Shown: positions 29,044 to 38,202 of the stretch, in pieces
How positions within the stretch are numbered: position 1 is the stretch's first letter
Layout: every line of letters starts with the position of its first letter
Origin: a virus
Virus record (IMG/VR): IMGVR_UViG_3300042691_006067
Coordinates: 1-39,124 of that record
Reading direction: 5' to 3' (one strand)
DNA length: 39,124 bases
Notes under the pieces: model-generated
Databases searched by the model: none
Told to the model about the DNA's origin: nothing
The model's input: only the letters and a program-made list of their open reading frames with translations
Program-made: the position numbers and the translations under genes

Positions 29044-29241
29044 TCAGGCTTTGGCCTTGGTAGGCTTGGGTGGGTTTGCCTCTGCCAACAAGCAAAGGGC
29101 GTAGTGGAAACCACTGCCGGGTTCTGCGGTCAGCAGGGCTTCCTGAATTTCAGCGTTGTCAATTTTGTAGTCTGCGGCAACCCGCTGTGGGTCGCCGTAG
29201 GTTGCCAAAATCGCCTCAGTTGCTTGTTCAATCGCGGTCAT
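29044..29241 (-). CDS. Small tail-cluster protein
   Basis: 65 residues from ATG 29241, sharing one base with the upstream stop in the TGATG overlap. Helical N terminus MTAIEQATEAILATYGDPQR and a Pro/Lys-rich end. No function recognised. It lies directly after the second tail tube gene and may be a tail assembly factor. Confidence 0.7.
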   Translation of the reverse strand: MTAIEQATEAILATYGDPQRVAADYKIDNAEIQEALLTAEPGSGFHYALCLLAEANPPKPTKAKA

Positions 29242-29759
29242 CAGTTGTTGCTCCAGCCGTACTGATTGCCCCGTGGGTGAATCGTGAAGTTGCATTTGGC
29301 TTCCGCGTTGGGCTGCGCATCAATCTGGAAGTTGCTGACGCGGGCGTTGAAAGCGTATGCAATGGTGTTTGCGCCGTCAACAGCGGCCACAACGAACGTG
29401 CGGTCAACGATGCCGCTTGTTGCGTCAGCGCGAATCTGCAACAGGGCCGCGTCAGACGGGTTCCATGCGGCAGTGATGCTCATGCTGGTTGGTGCGGCCT
29501 GTGTTGGAATCTTGTCAGACTGGCGCGAACCCGCCACGGAAAAGTTTGCCACCGCATCGTCTGAACCAAAAGGCGGAACCGCCTCAACAGGAACCAAAAT
29601 GCCAGCCGTGCCAGTGCCGTTTGCGGCAGTGCCCACGATGGTCGTGACCTGAGCAACCCATACGGACAAGTTGGCCGTGGTCAGTGGGGTGGGCGTGGCG
29701 GCAGATTGCATCCACAGGGACGCGCTGAAACCGGGTAGAACCTTTGCTGGAATAGACAT
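29241..29759 (-). CDS. Major tail (tube) protein, copy B
   Basis: 172 residues, a paralogue of the next gene. Both share PGFSASL, a VPVEAVP-FGSDDAVANFSV block, GSRQSDKIP, and the identical end IHPRGNQYGWSNN. The insert TIVGTAANGTGTAGIL near residue 40 is unique to this copy. Tube proteins polymerise into the tail. Two adjacent copies mean the tube may be mixed or one copy may replace the other in part. Starts 9 bp after the upstream copy. Confidence 0.85.
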   Translation of the reverse strand: MSIPAKVLPGFSASLWMQSAATPTPLTTANLSVWVAQVTTIVGTAANGTGTAGILVPVEAVPPFGSDDAVANFSVAGSRQSDKIPTQAAPTSMSITAAWNPSDAALLQIRADATSGIVDRTFVVAAVDGANTIAYAFNARVSNFQIDAQPNAEAKCNFTIHPRGNQYGWSNN

Positions 29760-29768
29760 GATTGCACC

Positions 29769-30263
29769 TTATGCGTTGTTGCTCCAACCGTACTGGTTGC
29801 CGCGTGGATGGATGGTGAAATTGCACTTTGCCTCAGCGTTTGGTTGCGCGTCAATCTGGAAATTGCTCACGCGCCCGTTGAAAGCGTAGTACACGATGTT
29901 TGCACCGTCCTCAGCCTCAATTACAAAGGTTCGGTCGATGATGCCGCTGGCCGCGTCAGCACGCATCAACAGCAGGTTAGTGTCGGCAGGGTTCCAAGCC
30001 GCAGTGACGCTGAGACTTGTTGGTGCAGCTTGCACTGGGATTTTGTCGGACTGACGCGAACCAGCAACAGAAAAGTTTGCAACAGCGTCATCAGACCCGA
30101 ATGCGGGCACAGCCTCAACCGGCAACAGGTTTCCCGTGACGGCCAATGGAGACACGCTAGCAACCAGCGACAGTTGCGCGATTGTCAGGGGTGTTGGGGT
30201 TGCGCCGGGTTGCGCGAACAGCGATGCGGAAAAACCGGGCAGGACTTTGTTTGGAAGGGCCAT
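29769..30263 (-). CDS. Major tail (tube) protein, copy A
   Basis: 164 residues, beta-rich, paralogous to the gene downstream. Blocks: LPNKVLPGFSASLFAQPGAT, PAFGSDDAVANFSVAGSRQS, then a NGRVSNFQIDAQPNAEAKCN block and the same C-terminal end. It is the first tail gene after the connectors and has a good GAGGAA ribosome binding site. Probable major component of the tail tube. Confidence 0.87.
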   Translation of the reverse strand: MALPNKVLPGFSASLFAQPGATPTPLTIAQLSLVASVSPLAVTGNLLPVEAVPAFGSDDAVANFSVAGSRQSDKIPVQAAPTSLSVTAAWNPADTNLLLMRADAASGIIDRTFVIEAEDGANIVYYAFNGRVSNFQIDAQPNAEAKCNFTIHPRGNQYGWSNNA

Positions 30264-31067: not shown

Positions 31068-31736
31068 TTACATCACCAGCGGTTTGTAAGGGCGCAGCAA
31101 TGTCGCAACGCCAAAAGGGATTTCCTTGAGTTGGATTTCCGTGGTGTTGCTTCGGTTGTTGTAAAGGTGCGTGAACAACAACAGGCCAGCTTGCTTGATG
31201 ACCGGGTACTGCGCCAGCGGGTTGGCCGCTGTCACGTATTCGCAAAACACCGGGCTGGTCATGTCACTGTTCAAATCGGTCGGCAGTGATTGCAGCACGA
31301 TTTTGTTGCCAGAAGGGTCGTAATAGTATTGGTTGGGGGGTACTGTGACCAAGACCGGAATCGTTGCACCTGTCCAGTATTTAACTGCGCTAACGGTGAC
31401 GCCGGGTTGCCCCGGGTTCTGATTCTGGCTTACCTCCGGCAAATCCAACGTCAAGGGCGTGCCGTACAGACTCGCCGCGTTGTACCAAACCCGGTAGCTG
31501 GTGGGGAAGATGGACAAGCCAATGAAATCCTCAATGGCTTGGCGCACCGCCAGTTCCAACGCCTCAAGGAACCCGTCTTGCGACTCGTCCTCAAACAAGT
31601 TGAGTTGGTTGGCAAGTTCTTGGGTTGTGAGCCATTGGGTGGAAATGTCCCGCCCAATCTGCTCAAACTTGGCGTAGTTGAACGGGTTGCGCGTTGGCGC
31701 ACCGTAGCTGAGATAACCCAGTTGCTCAACGCTCAT
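31068..31736 (-). CDS. Head-tail connector (gp6-like)
   Basis: 222 residues. A helical N-terminal region (RQAIEDFIGLSIFPTSYRVW) and the QAIEDF helix are characteristic of HK97 gp6-type adaptor proteins, which bind the portal ring. The insert with PPNQYYYDPSGNKIVL is beta-rich. GAGGTG precedes ATG 31736, and the gene lies right after the second capsid copy. Length is greater than the HK97 gp6 (about 108), because of the beta insert. Confidence 0.8.
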   Translation of the reverse strand: MSVEQLGYLSYGAPTRNPFNYAKFEQIGRDISTQWLTTQELANQLNLFEDESQDGFLEALELAVRQAIEDFIGLSIFPTSYRVWYNAASLYGTPLTLDLPEVSQNQNPGQPGVTVSAVKYWTGATIPVLVTVPPNQYYYDPSGNKIVLQSLPTDLNSDMTSPVFCEYVTAANPLAQYPVIKQAGLLLFTHLYNNRSNTTEIQLKEIPFGVATLLRPYKPLVM

Positions 31737-31747
31737 GGTTCACCTCA

Positions 31748-32764
31748 TTAGGCTGCGGACACTCGGACGCCAGCAAACGGGTCACGCACGCTGGACACAA
31801 TCCGTTTTTCCGCGAACATGGTGATGAAACCGGGGGCTGTTTGCTCAAACCCTTGAATTGTCATCTGCTCTGTGTCGCCAATGGTCAGGAAACGCGGCCA
31901 GTTGCCAAGGTAGGCAGGGAAAGCATCGCTCAGGTACGGGTTGGCAATCACAGGGAAGCCAAACACGTTGCCCACGGCTGAACCGTCCTTTTCGCCAATC
32001 TCAAGGAACAAGGGCATGCCTTGTGTGTCCTTCAACTGACGCAGGGTCTTGATGAGGGTAGGGGTCATTTGCCACATAGTTCCGGGCATAGACCAGTATT
32101 GGGCTGGCAAGGCGTCAACAGTGTCAACAATCTTGTTGTAAGTCACGGTCACGCCGCCCAAGCTGACGTTGGCAATCGTGTGAATGCCGTTGGTCATGTT
32201 GACGCCGCTTGTGCCATACGCACTTGCCGCGCCGCTCAGGTAGCTGTTCAAACCGCGCAAACCAGATTCGCCACCGGTCGTGGTGGTGGTGGTTCCGCTT
32301 TGATCGTTGTTACGAACCATGCTCAATGCTTCTTGTTGAGCAAACTCAAGGGCAAGGTCATCAGCAATGGTTGGGTCAAGGGCATTAACGTCCGACAGGA
32401 CGGCAGTGCGAATCGGAAGTTGTGCCGTAATGACGCGGACAGGCAACTGCCAGATTGTGGTGTCTGTGTTGGGCGTACCGCTGTTGGGCGTGAAGGTGTA
32501 GCCCCAAGGGTTTGCTTGGTTGGTTGCGTTACCTGTCTTGGCAACGAACTGCATGTCAGAACCGTTCACTGGCACTTCGCGTGCAGCCATCCGCAAAGGG
32601 TTGGCAAGGCGCAGGGCAGCAAACGCATCGTCAAAAACAACGCGGCCACCGACATTGGAACCGGAACCGGTCAAGGCGGATGCTTCGCGCAGGTCTATGT
32701 TGACGGCAGTGTGCTCCATCAGGGCTTGCTTGATGCCGCTCAGGACTTTTTCGGTAGTGTTCAT
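31748..32764 (-). CDS. HK97-fold major capsid protein paralogue (no scaffold domain)
   Basis: 338 residues from ATG 32764. From residue 27 on it parallels the upstream capsid protein: REASALTG, FAALRLANPLRMA, IRTAVLSDVNALDPTIADDL, ALSMVRNNDQSGTT, the VFGFPVIANPYL region and the end SVRDPFAGVRVSAA. It lacks the roughly 105-residue helical N-terminal scaffold (delta) domain. The ribosome binding site is poor, and an upstream GTG start would put codons through the terminator hairpin. It could be a second capsomer subunit, a minor capsid protein or a decaying duplicate; all reading is intact, so selection is likely. Confidence 0.83.
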   Translation of the reverse strand: MNTTEKVLSGIKQALMEHTAVNIDLREASALTGSGSNVGGRVVFDDAFAALRLANPLRMAAREVPVNGSDMQFVAKTGNATNQANPWGYTFTPNSGTPNTDTTIWQLPVRVITAQLPIRTAVLSDVNALDPTIADDLALEFAQQEALSMVRNNDQSGTTTTTTGGESGLRGLNSYLSGAASAYGTSGVNMTNGIHTIANVSLGGVTVTYNKIVDTVDALPAQYWSMPGTMWQMTPTLIKTLRQLKDTQGMPLFLEIGEKDGSAVGNVFGFPVIANPYLSDAFPAYLGNWPRFLTIGDTEQMTIQGFEQTAPGFITMFAEKRIVSSVRDPFAGVRVSAA

Positions 32765-32789
32765 GGCGTGTGTCCGTATGTGAAAAGTG

Positions 32790-32817
32790 AAAAAAGGCAA
32801 GGGCCGTAGCCCCTGCC
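32790..32817 (-). terminator. Intrinsic terminator between the two capsid genes
   Basis: On the minus strand GGCAGGGGC and GCCCTTGCC form a 9-bp stem (one G-T wobble) around the tetraloop TACG, followed at once by TTTTTT (32795-32790). This is a textbook intrinsic terminator. It lies after the capsid stop at 32833 and before the second capsid start at 32764. It will lower transcription of everything downstream unless read-through or antitermination occurs. Confidence 0.88.
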
Positions 32818-32832
32818 AATGGCTCACTGCAA

Positions 32833-34182
32833 TCAGGTCGCAGTGCCGGTGGAACGATAGCGCACACCAGCATTGGGATCACGCACGCTTGTCGCAAGTC
32901 TTTTTTCCCCGAAAAAGGTTATAAATCCAGGGAGTGTCTGGTCGTACCTGCGCATGACCATGTTGAGGCGGTCAATGATGGTGTGGTAGCGGCTCCAGTC
33001 AGCAAAAAACATTGGGTACAAGCTGTTTGTGCCAGCAGCACCGGTAGTTGTTTGCGATGGAGTGTCAACGTACTTGTTCACCACAACGTCAAAGCCCAAC
33101 AGTTGGCCCACGATGCCCTCAACCGACAAACCTTCATTACGGTTGAAGATGGGTGCGCCGTTGTTGTCCTTTAGGCCGCGAATTGCGTTCAACAGGATGG
33201 GGCTGATGACGAACTTCGCGCTGTCTGTCCAGTACTCTTGCGGCAAAGCATAAATGAGGTTGATCACATCGTTGTAGGTGATGTTGTTCGCGCCCACGGT
33301 GTTGCCGTTGGTGGTCAACTGGTCATAGGTAGCCAAGTTGTGCAAGCCGCTGGTGGAACCTGTACCGCTGGAACCAAACGCCGACACGGAAGTTGTGCCG
33401 CCTGTGTAGGTTGCGTTTGCGCCGGGATATTGGTCAAGGCCACGCACGCCGTCCGCGCCACCTGTGGACACGGTAGTGCCGGAACCGGTCTGGTCATTGT
33501 TCTGAATCATGCTGAGGGCTTCAGCCTGTGCGAACTCTGCCAGCATGTCGTCAACCACGTTGGCTTCCAAGCCGTCAATGTCATCCAGCGCAGCAGTTCG
33601 GATGGGGAACTGCACGTTGATGTCCTTGAGGACGATTTGCCAGATGCTGGTGTTTTCCGTGGTGGGCGTACCGTTGTTCTGGATGCCATAGCCCCACTGA
33701 GCACCAGCGTTGCCGGTCTTGACGCGGAACTGATAGCTGGAACCGTCAGTTGCGACAGTGCGAGACACGCCGCGCAGGGGGTTAGCCAGACGCAGTGCGC
33801 GGAACACGGGGTCATACCCGGTGCGGCCACCCTTGCCATCACCGCCAGCGGTCAGGGCAGAGGCTTCCTTCAGGTACGCATCCATTTGGCTTTCGTCTGC
33901 AAAAATTTGCAGTTGCTTTTCAAAGGTGGACTTGCCAGCGGCCAACTCTTTCAGTTGTTCGCGCACATGACGGTTCACGTCAACACGCACGGACTTGGCT
34001 TGCTCTTTGTGGATGGCGGGAGTGCCCACGGCCGCAACTTTAGCTTCCAGTGCGTTCACCATTTCGCTGAATTCGGCCTTGATGGCTTCAACAGCGGCAG
34101 GGATTTTGGCTTCAACAGCGGTGATGCTCTCAGCTTGTTTGGCTTCGATGGCATCCAATTTTTCAATGATTTCTTTTTGCAT
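32833..34182 (-). CDS. HK97-fold major capsid protein
   Basis: 449 residues. The N-terminal 105 residues are a coiled-coil scaffold (delta) domain (EIIEKLDAIEAKQAESITAV to about residue 100), normally removed by the prohead protease. The mature domain begins near EASALTAGG and shows FRALRLANPLRGVSRTV, IWQIVLKDINVQFPIRTAAL, ALSMIQNNDQTGSGTT, GQLLGFDVVVNKYV and the end SVRDPNAGVRYRS. Main shell subunit. AAAGG precedes ATG 34182, directly after the protease gene. Confidence 0.93.
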   Translation of the reverse strand: MQKEIIEKLDAIEAKQAESITAVEAKIPAAVEAIKAEFSEMVNALEAKVAAVGTPAIHKEQAKSVRVDVNRHVREQLKELAAGKSTFEKQLQIFADESQMDAYLKEASALTAGGDGKGGRTGYDPVFRALRLANPLRGVSRTVATDGSSYQFRVKTGNAGAQWGYGIQNNGTPTTENTSIWQIVLKDINVQFPIRTAALDDIDGLEANVVDDMLAEFAQAEALSMIQNNDQTGSGTTVSTGGADGVRGLDQYPGANATYTGGTTSVSAFGSSGTGSTSGLHNLATYDQLTTNGNTVGANNITYNDVINLIYALPQEYWTDSAKFVISPILLNAIRGLKDNNGAPIFNRNEGLSVEGIVGQLLGFDVVVNKYVDTPSQTTTGAAGTNSLYPMFFADWSRYHTIIDRLNMVMRRYDQTLPGFITFFGEKRLATSVRDPNAGVRYRSTGTAT

Positions 34183-34185
34183 GGT

Positions 34186-34989
34186 TCAACCTTTCAGTCG
34201 TTGGTCAAGTTGTTTCAACAGTTCCCGCTGCTCCAATGCGGCAAGAATCTGCTGTGCTTCGGTCACTTCCGCGTCAGAATCGCTCTGTGCGGGCGTGTTA
34301 TCAGTTGGGAATTGGACAGCCTCACGCTGACTCAGAACCTTCCTGAAAACGGACGCGGAAGTGACCGCATCCTTCTTGGACAAGCCAGCTTCACGCAAAG
34401 CCTTTTCCAAAATCTTCAAGTCAGCAGTGCCATCTTCCCGGAAGAATTCCAGCTTCTGCACTTCTGCTTGGGGGTTGTTGGGGTACATCACCACGGACAC
34501 TTCGCGCAGACCGCCTTTGGTGATTTGAAAGTAACCTTCATCCCAGTATTCGCCAGAACCGGCAGGGAAAACACTGCCGTCTTCCTTGACCCACTGGAAT
34601 TCTTCAGCATACGCGCCAACAGACACGCCGCCAAACATCGCGGCTGATTCCGTCATCACGTTGTAAAGGTCTGCGCCTTGAGTGGTGTTAAGGTACAGAC
34701 GCCCTTTGGCGGTCATGCCCTCATCGTCAAACGCGAATTCTGTCCATTCGCCCACCGGGATGGCGTCAGCCGCATGATTCACGAACATTGGCAGGGGTCT
34801 GCCTGACTCGGTGAATTCTTTTGCCCAATCCATGAAGCCTTCGGGCTGATAGTAGAACTTGCGTCCATCAGCCCCTTCCCTTGGCCCCCATGTGGTGACT
34901 TTGGCTTCAATTCTGCCGGTGGGTGCGGTTCCCTTTGCGGCTTCCACCGCCAGTTTGGCCTCGCACACCAGCATCACGTTTTTTGTCAT
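34186..34989 (-). CDS. HK97-type prohead protease (S78/U35)
   Basis: 267 residues from ATG 34989, chosen over the TTG at 35019 because GAGG lies 8 bases upstream. Catalytic His72 in FVNHAADAIPVGEW and Ser123 in GGVSVGAYAEE match the U35/S78 His-Ser pair. The protease cleaves the capsid delta domain and itself during prohead maturation. The C-terminal 70 residues are Glu/Gln-rich and probably a self-cleaved tail. It overlaps the AT-hook ORF by 83 bases. Confidence 0.9.
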   Translation of the reverse strand: MTKNVMLVCEAKLAVEAAKGTAPTGRIEAKVTTWGPREGADGRKFYYQPEGFMDWAKEFTESGRPLPMFVNHAADAIPVGEWTEFAFDDEGMTAKGRLYLNTTQGADLYNVMTESAAMFGGVSVGAYAEEFQWVKEDGSVFPAGSGEYWDEGYFQITKGGLREVSVVMYPNNPQAEVQKLEFFREDGTADLKILEKALREAGLSKKDAVTSASVFRKVLSQREAVQFPTDNTPAQSDSDAEVTEAQQILAALEQRELLKQLDQRLKG

Positions 34990-35119
34990 AGATAACCTCA
35001 TCGACTTTGGTTGTGTCAATGTCGTGTATTGTTTTTGGTGGCCGTCCCCGTCTTTTTGGCGCAGGACTTGGCTTGATTGTTGCCAAGGATGCTACCATCA
35101 AACGAAAAATCAGCGACAT
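34907..35119 (-). CDS. AT-hook-containing small ORF between portal and protease
   Basis: 70 residues, with KRRGRPPK (23-30), a perfect AT-hook core, followed by TIHDIDTTKVDEVIYDKKRD and a basic Gly/Arg/Lys-rich tail. ATG 35119 directly follows the portal stop (TAAATG), so translational coupling is possible; the ribosome binding site is weak. Its last 83 bases overlap the protease start in another frame and may be unused. AT-hooks bind the minor groove of AT-rich DNA, so it could be packaged with or condense DNA. A chance ORF is possible. Confidence 0.5.
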   Translation of the reverse strand: MSLIFRLMVASLATIKPSPAPKRRGRPPKTIHDIDTTKVDEVIYDKKRDAGVRGQTGGGSRKGNRTHRQN

Positions 35120-36526
35120 TTATTTGCCGATGTTCATCTTGCGGGTTTGATTGCCCCCGCCACCGCCCGTGTCTTGCGGGCTTGTCCCGGGAATTGGCTC
35201 AACGCCTCCCTTGTCCCCCACCAGTTCGTCCGCGCCTTCCATCTTGGGCATCCCAAGGTATTCGCGCCCCTCATTGGGGGTCATCACGCCAGCCTTGACG
35301 CCTGAATTGACGAAATTCATCTGGTCAAGTGGTGCGCCCTTCAGGAAGTTCTTGGTGTCAAACTCAACGTACAGGTTGGGGTAATCGTTGAACAACGCTT
35401 GCTTCAGCTTCTGTTGGGCGTTCACCAGAATTGGGTACATGGTGGATTTGTAAAATTCATCCAGCATGGTCTGCGTGTTGTTGTACTTGGATTCGCCCAC
35501 GCCAATCATTGCCGCTGGCACGCCGTACAGGGCGCAGATGCGTTTCATGGTTTGGGTCTTGAGGTTGGCAAGGTCGGTGTCTTGCAACGTCAAGGGCTTG
35601 ACCGCCTCATAGCGCATACCTTGGTCAAGCAACATGGACTGACCGGGCTTGCTCAGGTCTGTGCGCTGGCTTCCAATCATGCTGCTCCACGCTTCCTTGA
35701 GGCGTGCGGAAATTTCCTTGAACTTGCTGTCCGGGATGACTTGCTCGGTCACAAAAATGCCAGACGGCTTGGCTCCGTTGAGCATCACGTAGTTGGCATA
35801 AATGTCAATGTCTTGGTCAAGGCCAACCAGTTCAGCGGCCAACATACCTTTGTTGAAACCAGCGGAACCCTGCCACGCTTGGTCTTTGCAGTGCATGACT
35901 TGGTAGTATTGCAGTGGCTCATCCTTGCTGAACCCGTATGAGGGAGTGGACAGCCTGTATGACGGGTAACGGGTTTCGGTGATGGTCACAGCAATCAGCG
36001 TGGAATCCAGCACGTACATTTCCAGCGGCAGTTGCGTCATCTTTTTTTGGTCTGCTCTCCACCAGAGGGTGAAGGCTTCGCCAAGCATTTCGTGCCACAT
36101 CATCCACTGATACCAAAACTCATATTGGCTTTGGAAATTGTTTGGGGCTTCCAGCAGTTTCAGTGCGGCCTTGGCGCGTTGCTTGTCGCGGACACCAACT
36201 TTGTCTGAGGCAAGCGCATCCACGTATTCGCCGTCATCGCTTCTGCACATAATCCTGATGGGAAGCTGCGAAATTGCACGCGCCTTTGCGGAAATGCACG
36301 ACATGACAGTGCTGTTGCGGGATAACAGGGAAGTGTCAACCGGGCGTCCCGCATCCGTGGCACTGGACGTGGTGACGTACAGGATTTGCGTGTTGACGGT
36401 GGGCCGCTTGTTGTCGCCTTGGTAGACGATGTTGTTGCCCAAAGCAGTTTGGCCGAAAAGCGTGTTGGCTTCGTTGGCTTTGGTTGCTTTCCGTTTGAAA
36501 ATCTCAGGGATGCCGCGCAGTTCCAT
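35120..36526 (-). CDS. HK97-family portal protein
   Basis: 468 residues from ATG 36526 (GAGG 6 bases upstream); an in-frame TTG at 36538 overlaps the terminase stop and is the alternative. Portal features are ALKLLEAPNNFQSQYEFWYQ, a long helical region (DQDIDIYANYVMLNGAKPSG), the AALYGVPAAMIG-like block ALYGVPAAMIGVGESKYNN and the helical tail. The C terminus ends in a Gly-rich and basic stretch. It forms the dodecameric DNA entry channel. Confidence 0.92.
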   Translation of the reverse strand: MELRGIPEIFKRKATKANEANTLFGQTALGNNIVYQGDNKRPTVNTQILYVTTSSATDAGRPVDTSLLSRNSTVMSCISAKARAISQLPIRIMCRSDDGEYVDALASDKVGVRDKQRAKAALKLLEAPNNFQSQYEFWYQWMMWHEMLGEAFTLWWRADQKKMTQLPLEMYVLDSTLIAVTITETRYPSYRLSTPSYGFSKDEPLQYYQVMHCKDQAWQGSAGFNKGMLAAELVGLDQDIDIYANYVMLNGAKPSGIFVTEQVIPDSKFKEISARLKEAWSSMIGSQRTDLSKPGQSMLLDQGMRYEAVKPLTLQDTDLANLKTQTMKRICALYGVPAAMIGVGESKYNNTQTMLDEFYKSTMYPILVNAQQKLKQALFNDYPNLYVEFDTKNFLKGAPLDQMNFVNSGVKAGVMTPNEGREYLGMPKMEGADELVGDKGGVEPIPGTSPQDTGGGGGNQTRKMNIGK

Positions 36527-36534
36527 ATCATTCC

Positions 36535-38202
36535 TCAAAAGGTTCGGAAGCCAAAACCACTCACTGCGGGATTGTCCAAAGAACAGTGCATGGCGATGAT
36601 AAGCGCGATTATGCCATCCACTTTGGCACTTTTGTCAGCTTCGTTCTTGCGCACCTTCACGTTTCCGTTCACATCCTCATACACCTCACAGTTCCCAAGC
36701 TGCCAGCCCACAAACGGGTTTCCGTCATGCTTAATGGCGTGCTGCATGATGAGTTTTTCGGTGTGTTTGGACGGGTTTGACAGCACGGCCATGCCTTGGC
36801 CCACCTTTTTGACAGGCAATCCGGCTTCGTGCAACCGGGCCACAAGGGACGCCGCGTTGTAGGCGTCATACCCAATTTCCTTCACATCGTTGCGGTTGCA
36901 CTCGGCAATGATGTAGTCGCTGATTTCCCGGTCATCCATCACGTTGCCCTCAGTGACGTGCAAAATGCCCGCCTGACGCGCCACACGGAAAATGTCCAAG
37001 TAGTGCTTAGGGATGAGGTCATACCCGGCTTCCGGCATGAAGAACTTCCAGTGCGCCTCATAGTCATCCTCAGCGTAACGCTTGAGGGTGCACACGGCAT
37101 TCAGGTCACGGACGGCCGCAAGGTCAAAGCCGATGAACACCGCTTCCGGCTCCCGGCCAAGGTTCGCCACGTTGCTGCATTTCGGGCTGTCCCAATAATC
37201 CCGGTCAACCCATGCGCTGTTTGCGCTGACGTAGATGTTGAGGGTCTTGCACAGGAACTCGTTGAGTGCCGCTGGCTTGTGCTTGGCTTCTTCCGCCCGC
37301 TGCGCGATGGCTTCCTCAAACACGCTGATGCCGTGCATAGGGTTAGCCTTGGCCCACGTTGAGGGTTCCCGCCAGTCATCCCCGGGGTCAAGGCTGTACA
37401 ACAGGCCAAACCAACGCGGGTTGTCCTCCGCTTCCCCAGACAGCATTGCCTCCAGCAACTGCATGTCTTCATAAAACTTGGTTTCCTTGGTGAAGCTGGC
37501 CGTGGTGATGTAAACCCTGAGCGGGTTCTGACGCGCCACCATGCCGGAAAACATCACCTCAATCGTGTTGCGGTCAACAATCTGCGCCGCTTCGTCAATG
37601 ATGACGCAAGACGGGTTCAGGCCGTCACCGGACTTCTTCGTGTCCCGGCTCAGGGCTTTGAACACGCTTTGGCTGTCGCCGCGCTTGACGATTTGGTAAC
37701 GGCTGACACCGTACAGGCCGCTGACGTCACCGGGCATGGCCTCAACAAAACCCTGCGCCGCGTGAAACACCAAGCTGGCTTGGTCACGGTTGGTCGCCAG
37801 CGTGTAGACCTCCGCGCCGGATTCGCCCCATTGAAGTTCATACAGGCCGATGACCGCAATCAGGGTTGACTTGCCCGCCTTCCGGGGGATGTACACGATG
37901 ACGTCCGTGACCATCCGCCGTTTTGGGTCTTTCTTGCTTCGGAACCCGTAGATGGCGCATATCAGGAAAATCTGAAACGGCTCCAACACCAAGGGTTTTC
38001 CCGCCTCCGGGCCTTTGGTGTGGCACAAGGTGGACGCGAACTCAAGGAAGTGCTCAACATACTTGACGTGGAACTCATACGCCCATGACCTGTCCTCAAG
38101 CTGGTTCAGGAACCGCTGACAGGCAAGCCGGATGTTGCGGCACACGGAAATTTCGCCCCGTGCCACTTGAACCGCGTACAGGATGCCATCTTGATAGTCC
38201 AT
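36535..38202 (-). CDS. terL: Terminase large subunit
   Basis: 555 residues. ATPase: Walker A PRKAGKST at 106-113 and Walker B CVIIDEA at 199-205. Nuclease: Asp360 in IGFDLAAVRD, Asp446 in IGYDAYN and Asp529 in SAKVDG. It translocates DNA into the prohead and cuts it at packaging ends. The sequence is of the HK97/P27-associated terminase group. It starts 3 bp after the DUF7694 gene and its stop precedes the portal start. Confidence 0.94.
   Translation of the reverse strand: MDYQDGILYAVQVARGEISVCRNIRLACQRFLNQLEDRSWAYEFHVKYVEHFLEFASTLCHTKGPEAGKPLVLEPFQIFLICAIYGFRSKKDPKRRMVTDVIVYIPRKAGKSTLIAVIGLYELQWGESGAEVYTLATNRDQASLVFHAAQGFVEAMPGDVSGLYGVSRYQIVKRGDSQSVFKALSRDTKKSGDGLNPSCVIIDEAAQIVDRNTIEVMFSGMVARQNPLRVYITTASFTKETKFYEDMQLLEAMLSGEAEDNPRWFGLLYSLDPGDDWREPSTWAKANPMHGISVFEEAIAQRAEEAKHKPAALNEFLCKTLNIYVSANSAWVDRDYWDSPKCSNVANLGREPEAVFIGFDLAAVRDLNAVCTLKRYAEDDYEAHWKFFMPEAGYDLIPKHYLDIFRVARQAGILHVTEGNVMDDREISDYIIAECNRNDVKEIGYDAYNAASLVARLHEAGLPVKKVGQGMAVLSNPSKHTEKLIMQHAIKHDGNPFVGWQLGNCEVYEDVNGNVKVRKNEADKSAKVDGIIALIIAMHCSLDNPAVSGFGFRTF

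Follow-up and report, generated by a model that had tools for sequence, protein, structure and literature searches.

The window analysed here is the whole of a 39,124-nucleotide stretch of viral DNA (IMG/VR record IMGVR_UViG_3300042691_006067), which carries on its minus strand a head module in the order TerL, portal, S78 protease, MCP1, MCP2, head-tail adaptor and tail genes. The features around the two capsid genes are the following.

36535..38202, minus strand: terminase large subunit TerL (PF20441 and PF03354)
35120..36538, minus strand: portal protein (PF04860, E 9.2e-61)
34186..35019, minus strand: S78-type prohead protease, the presumed processing enzyme (PF04586, E 5.9e-09)
32833..34182, minus strand: MCP1, HK97-fold major capsid protein with a putative full-length N-terminal scaffold (delta) domain, 449 aa (PF05065, E 6.9e-31; PHROG 10, E 1.4e-33)
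33865..34182, minus strand: MCP1 propeptide, residues 1-106 (low-confidence AF2 model)
32796..32817, minus strand: terminator-like hairpin and T run in the MCP1-MCP2 gap (GGCAGGGGCTACGGCCCTTGCC TTTTTT), conserved among the gaps of relatives
31748..32764, minus strand: MCP2, second HK97-fold capsid protein, 338 aa (PF05065, E 4.1e-22; start common to relatives; fold match)
32684..32764, minus strand: putative spoke/PDAR-like MCP2 propeptide, 27 residues (AF2 model, structural alignment, helical moment, conservation)
31068..31736, minus strand: head-tail adaptor, directly downstream of MCP2 (PHROG 40, E 8.9e-11; PHROG 442, E 6.2e-09)

MCP1 and MCP2 score 108.1 and 79.3 bits, respectively, against the Phage_capsid family PF05065 (curated cut-off 24.2), and both match PHROG 10, major head protein. 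MCP2 is taken as the 338-aa product of the ATG at 32764, a start shared by relatives, rather than the listed 359-aa ORF, whose GTG start lies 21 codons earlier and whose extra codons fall within the intergenic hairpin region. In the relatives, the MCP2 N-terminus reads M-x-x-T-E-K-I-L-x-G-I-K-x-A or a close variant. With this start, the gap between the two genes is 68 bases. The best fold match of the MCP2 model is the RcGTA MCP (Z 18.5), and HK97 Prohead I (Z 15.2) and the D3 MCP are matched as well. The Rhodobacter capsulatus GTA capsid Rcc01687 is also the closest solved sequence to both copies (E 4.1e-09 and 2e-04), yet the matched RcGTA entries name one capsid protein and a second paralogue is not seen there.

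Paralogy and retention of the capsid gene pair

MCP1 and MCP2 are 40% identical over 379 columns in pairwise BLASTP (E 2e-81), and their profile-profile alignment (probability 100, E 1.9e-87) covers residues 22-336 of MCP2, beginning just before the EASAL motif. Sixty-six positions are conserved in both proteins, including motifs of the junction and the P-domain. The common ancestry of MCP1 and MCP2 is far beyond chance, and the preliminary description, which had read the two ORFs as adjacent paralogous HK97-fold genes homologous from EASALT on, was right on both counts. In a maximum-likelihood tree of 38 pairs and three outgroup capsid proteins, whose long branches leave the root soft, all 38 MCP1 sequences lie beyond one branch (97/96) and all 38 MCP2 sequences beyond another (81/83). 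Because MCP1 and MCP2 fall on separate sides of the tree, the topology is consistent with one duplication that predates the diversification of the group. Additionally, a check of substitution ratios, proposed in the preliminary description, reveals purifying selection on both copies, with median dN/dS of 0.14 for MCP1 and 0.13 for MCP2 (282 informative pairs).

The distribution of the tandem was followed in more than 350 loci, obtained from viral-contig scans with MCP1 or MCP2 as query (best 80 matches each) and from one bacterial-genome scan. Of the listed loci in which MCP1 is complete and followed by 1500 bases or more, 329 of 329 have MCP2 next to it, and all 325 listed MCP2 loci whose upstream sequence spans 1700 bases or more have MCP1; some of these loci are overlapping fragments of one contig, and the distinct complete pairs number 244. 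A search for the same tandem in relatives had been proposed in the preliminary description, and every such locus carries both genes; loss of the second frame in close relatives, named beforehand as evidence to the contrary, was looked for and occurs in none of the 329. Among the best 80 matches of each of the five viral scans and in the genome scan, no sister lineage with a single-copy MCP was found. The tandem is an old, fixed trait of a widespread freshwater-type phage group. Taken together, paralogy, purifying selection and universal presence uphold the view that MCP2 originated as a duplicate and was retained as a functional gene.

The window contains a second tandem, of tail-tube-like genes (29769-30263 and 29241-29759, minus strand; PHROG 158 major tail protein; 74% identical). 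This duplication is kept in 69 of the 238 loci able to show it (~29%) and the others are single copy, which argues that fixation of the capsid pair is not just the usual fate of duplicates in this group.

The same pair, in the same gene order, is found in an isolate that infects Methylophilaceae bacterium IMCC19250, Methylophilaceae phage P19250A, where the two proteins are 57.7% and 52.8% identical to those of the window. Its MCP1 (KX815270.1, 4600-5988) is annotated as a gene transfer agent capsid protein, and its second capsid gene is annotated only as a hypothetical protein. Contig JAHEYD010000010.1 (L230), binned as the archaeon Candidatus Nitrosotalea, carries the tandem and is probably a misbinned viral contig. 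At L004:4491-5840, the halves of MCP1 are separated by one in-frame stop, and in L031 MCP2 is split across two overlapping frames; each case is a single contig in which a sequencing error is likely.

Propeptides, junction and intergenic hairpin

In both proteins, a near-invariant E-A-S lies just ahead of the glycine-rich mature start. Specifically, the junction is E106|A107 in MCP1, where E106 is invariant in the alignment, and E27|A28 in MCP2, where it is conserved. The pattern [LIVMY]-x-E precedes the junction in at least 87-89% of pairs, a lower bound since the pattern search misplaced some sites. HK97 is cleaved at K103/S104, and the prohead protease of giant phages cuts after E at A-x-E. 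By its motif, the shared E|AS site would be where the S78 protease cuts both MCP1 and MCP2.

The two propeptides differ in length. Counted through the E, they span 97-113 residues in MCP1 and 23-56 in MCP2, with a mode of 27 (99 pairs), and the MCP2 of the window has 27. MCP1 has a putative delta domain: its first ~106 residues are modelled, at low confidence, as helical, and its gene adjoins that of the S78 protease; MCP2 has 27 residues only. In the AF2 model of MCP1 (pTM 0.43, too poor for structure search), the propeptide is predicted to consist of tower-like long helices 2-25 and 27-51, a helix 65-82 and a strand 89-92. In the AF2 model of MCP2 (pTM 0.64; block pLDDT 63, 66 and 51), it is predicted to comprise a helix 3-17, a turn and a strand 21-24, and the helix is amphipathic, with a moment of 1.73 versus 0.76 in shuffles.

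This arrangement recalls the end of known delta domains. The delta domain of HK97 Prohead I finishes in a spoke of 28 residues (76-103), a helix-turn-strand that lies on the P-domain, with the helix at 76-88 and the strand at 92-97. In D3, the first 70-80 residues form coiled-coil towers and the PDAR comprises residues 81-113. In structural alignments, the MCP2 model first aligns at its residue 2 with HK97 Prohead I (residue 76) and at its residue 1 with D3 (residue 81). Because length, predicted secondary structure and alignment position agree, MCP2 appears in these models to keep a segment like the HK97 spoke or the D3 PDAR and to be without the coiled-coil tower only; sequence gives no support, as no homology between the MCP1 and MCP2 propeptides was detected (hhalign probability 0.4). 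The preliminary description had MCP2 lacking the 105-residue delta domain altogether. This holds for the coiled-coil tower, which appears to be missing, but not for the conserved 27-residue propeptide and the E|AS junction, both of which are kept. Its corollary that MCP2 cannot self-scaffold is a reasonable prediction.

A GC-rich hairpin with a T run directly follows the MCP1 stop (32817-32796). Hairpins of -10 kcal/mol or lower occur in 116 of 155 distinct MCP1-MCP2 gaps versus 22 of 775 dinucleotide shuffles; of the stretches that follow MCP2, 4 of 143 have one, and of those that precede MCP1, none of 146. The stem sequences vary among loci, and the hairpin itself is retained. If it stops part of transcription, MCP1 would exceed MCP2 and the following genes in amount, and MCP2 is probably made in smaller amounts than MCP1. 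Terminators after the major capsid gene are common in phages, for example in T7, and lower every downstream gene, not MCP2 alone. The Shine-Dalgarno sequence is slightly stronger for MCP1 (median -5.4 versus -4.2 kcal/mol), a difference too small to weigh.

Some gaps also contain additional ORFs. A homing-endonuclease-like ORF (PHROG 314, E 6e-15 for the tested L073 copy) lies past the hairpin in some of them, and some relatives carry between the capsid genes a small ORF of PHROG 2859, function unknown (E 1e-26 for the tested L129 copy).

L073:7348-7995, L027:5666-6242 and L112:1507-2082: homing-endonuclease-like ORFs in the gap
L129:5623-5967 and L071:5768-6109: PHROG 2859 ORFs in the gap

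Possible role of MCP2 in the shell

We propose that MCP2 is a minor, co-assembling second subunit of the shell, most likely its vertex (penton) protein, and give this reading an even chance of being correct. The suggestion in the preliminary description that MCP2 is another type of subunit or builds pentons is supported in general terms. We infer a lower dose of MCP2 from the hairpin and its placement at the vertex by analogy; co-assembly with MCP1 and cleavage are likewise inferred. In the proposed scheme, one ancient duplication of MCP1 would have given rise to MCP2, which would have lost the tower of the delta domain but not the P-domain-clamping spoke. As its transcription would have to pass a terminator just behind MCP1, MCP2 would be made in fewer copies and would co-assemble with MCP1 to form the pentameric vertices, with ~55 copies of MCP2 to ~360 of MCP1 if T=7, as assumed from the ~39 kb genome. 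MCP1 would build the hexamers, its towers serving as internal scaffold and holding the portal, and the S78 protease would cut both proteins at E|AS. Such a split between hexons and pentons predicts an excess of MCP1 (360:55 at T=7), which the hairpin would fit, although any minor role is also compatible with it. No feature of the sequence bears directly on penton as opposed to hexon placement.

In HK97, 30 scaffold domains of the surrounding hexons contact the portal, and at ordinary penton vertices the scaffold domains have no substantial interaction with the penton subunits. Because those domains have little to do with pentons, a penton subunit could do without a tower, and one that has the clamp but not the tower would be well suited to that position. 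Most well-studied tailed phages use one protein for pentons and hexons, T4 being presented as the contrary case in a recent review of that phage. The T4 vertex protein gp24, whose gene was probably copied from that of the major capsid protein, has a propeptide of 10 residues versus 65 in gp23 (PMC9958956). Both systems comprise a paralogous HK97-fold pair, with the long propeptide on the first protein and the short one on the second, together with a prohead protease, and MCP2 shares with gp24 the shorter propeptide and the position adjoining the major capsid gene. The genes of gp23 and gp24 are themselves adjacent. On the other hand, the scaffold core is separate in T4, which also has an inserted I domain, whereas in MCP1/MCP2 phages the delta domain appears to be fused to the capsid protein and the genome is 39 kb long. 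Because MCP1 and MCP2 are ~40% identical and gp23 and gp24 ~20%, the MCP2 duplication would be separate from that of T4. MCP2 groups with the MCP1 of its own genome, apart from the three other phage MCPs compared, and no descent from the gp24 family is claimed. By analogy, MCP2 is most likely a convergent counterpart of gp24. That the labour of the delta domain is divided, with spoke and tower in the hexons and the spoke only in a dedicated penton subunit, an independent T4-like vertex protein, has in our view slightly less than an even chance.

Alternatively, MCP2 may join MCP1 in mixed capsomers beyond the pentons, taking a fixed place in skewed hexamers or standing round the portal. The common core fold, with conserved positions that include the junction and P-domain motifs, would allow such mixing, and the universal linkage of the two genes agrees with it. 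However, HK97 hexons rely at the portal on trimeric towers, which a towerless subunit would disrupt, the intergenic hairpin favours a minor component, and no precedent from tailed phages was found in the literature searched; we regard mixed capsomers as unlikely.

Two further roles appear more doubtful still. Family 2B encapsulins (9bje and 9bix, matched by the MCP2 model) place two HK97-fold paralogues in one shell, and the D3 paper ties the MCP scaffold domain to capsid geometry. Along these lines, MCP2 might regulate capsid size, its missing tower altering curvature upon incorporation, or might form an alternative smaller shell. Family 2B encapsulins, however, are cellular compartments with no portal and no scaffold domain. 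The window, moreover, holds a single terminase/portal set and no second genome to package, and universal retention better suits a basic structural role; size control or a smaller shell is quite improbable. Of similarly low probability is an assembly-only factor that acts in nucleation, protease recruitment or at the portal vertex and is absent from the virion. The short conserved propeptide beside a protease cut motif would suit it, and attachment of T4 gp24 is thought to trigger the protease; in a mirror-tree analysis, the MCP2-protease partial r of 0.34 is the highest among the pairs tested but weak, and the co-divergence of MCP1 with MCP2 (0.28) is no stronger than with other head genes. 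Nevertheless, a transient factor would not need the entire capsid core, all of which is conserved in MCP2.

A decoration-like role, also considered in the preliminary description, or one as outer cement would agree with the minor expression suggested by the hairpin. Known decoration proteins are small and, as a rule, not HK97-folded, whereas MCP2 has the full fold, a propeptide and a cleavage-like motif, all traits of a shell subunit, and its P- and A-domain core and junction motif are conserved with MCP1, so that this role is very unlikely. Finally, MCP2 has changed more quickly over time (median identity 65%, as opposed to 76% for MCP1), but a redundant or decaying paralogue is hardly credible given its low dN/dS, its presence in all 329 listed loci and the patchy retention of the tail tube duplication in the same window.

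The fold and the phage architecture are known: the apparently fused N-terminal delta domain, the S78-type protease and the order TerL-portal-protease-MCP are shared with HK97 and D3. In those two phages a single capsid protein serves pentons and hexons alike; the present group differs by an ever-present second capsid gene whose delta domain appears to have been trimmed of its tower. From T4 it differs by the probable separate origin of the pair, within a self-scaffolding head module of siphophage type. In the open literature searched, no prior description of the MCP1/MCP2 pair was found and T4 alone was comparable; the genome description of P19250A (Environ Microbiol 2017, 19:4714) lay outside that literature.

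If MCP2 is indeed a vertex protein that keeps the spoke, the pair would constitute a natural deletion experiment in which clamp and tower of the HK97 scaffold are uncoupled. The purpose of the tower as distinct from that of the spoke, and the way in which penton and hexon identities are assigned, could then be tested in a system of 39 kb that has a cultured representative, P19250A, and a function would be assigned to a gene that is called hypothetical in this phage, the only isolate found.
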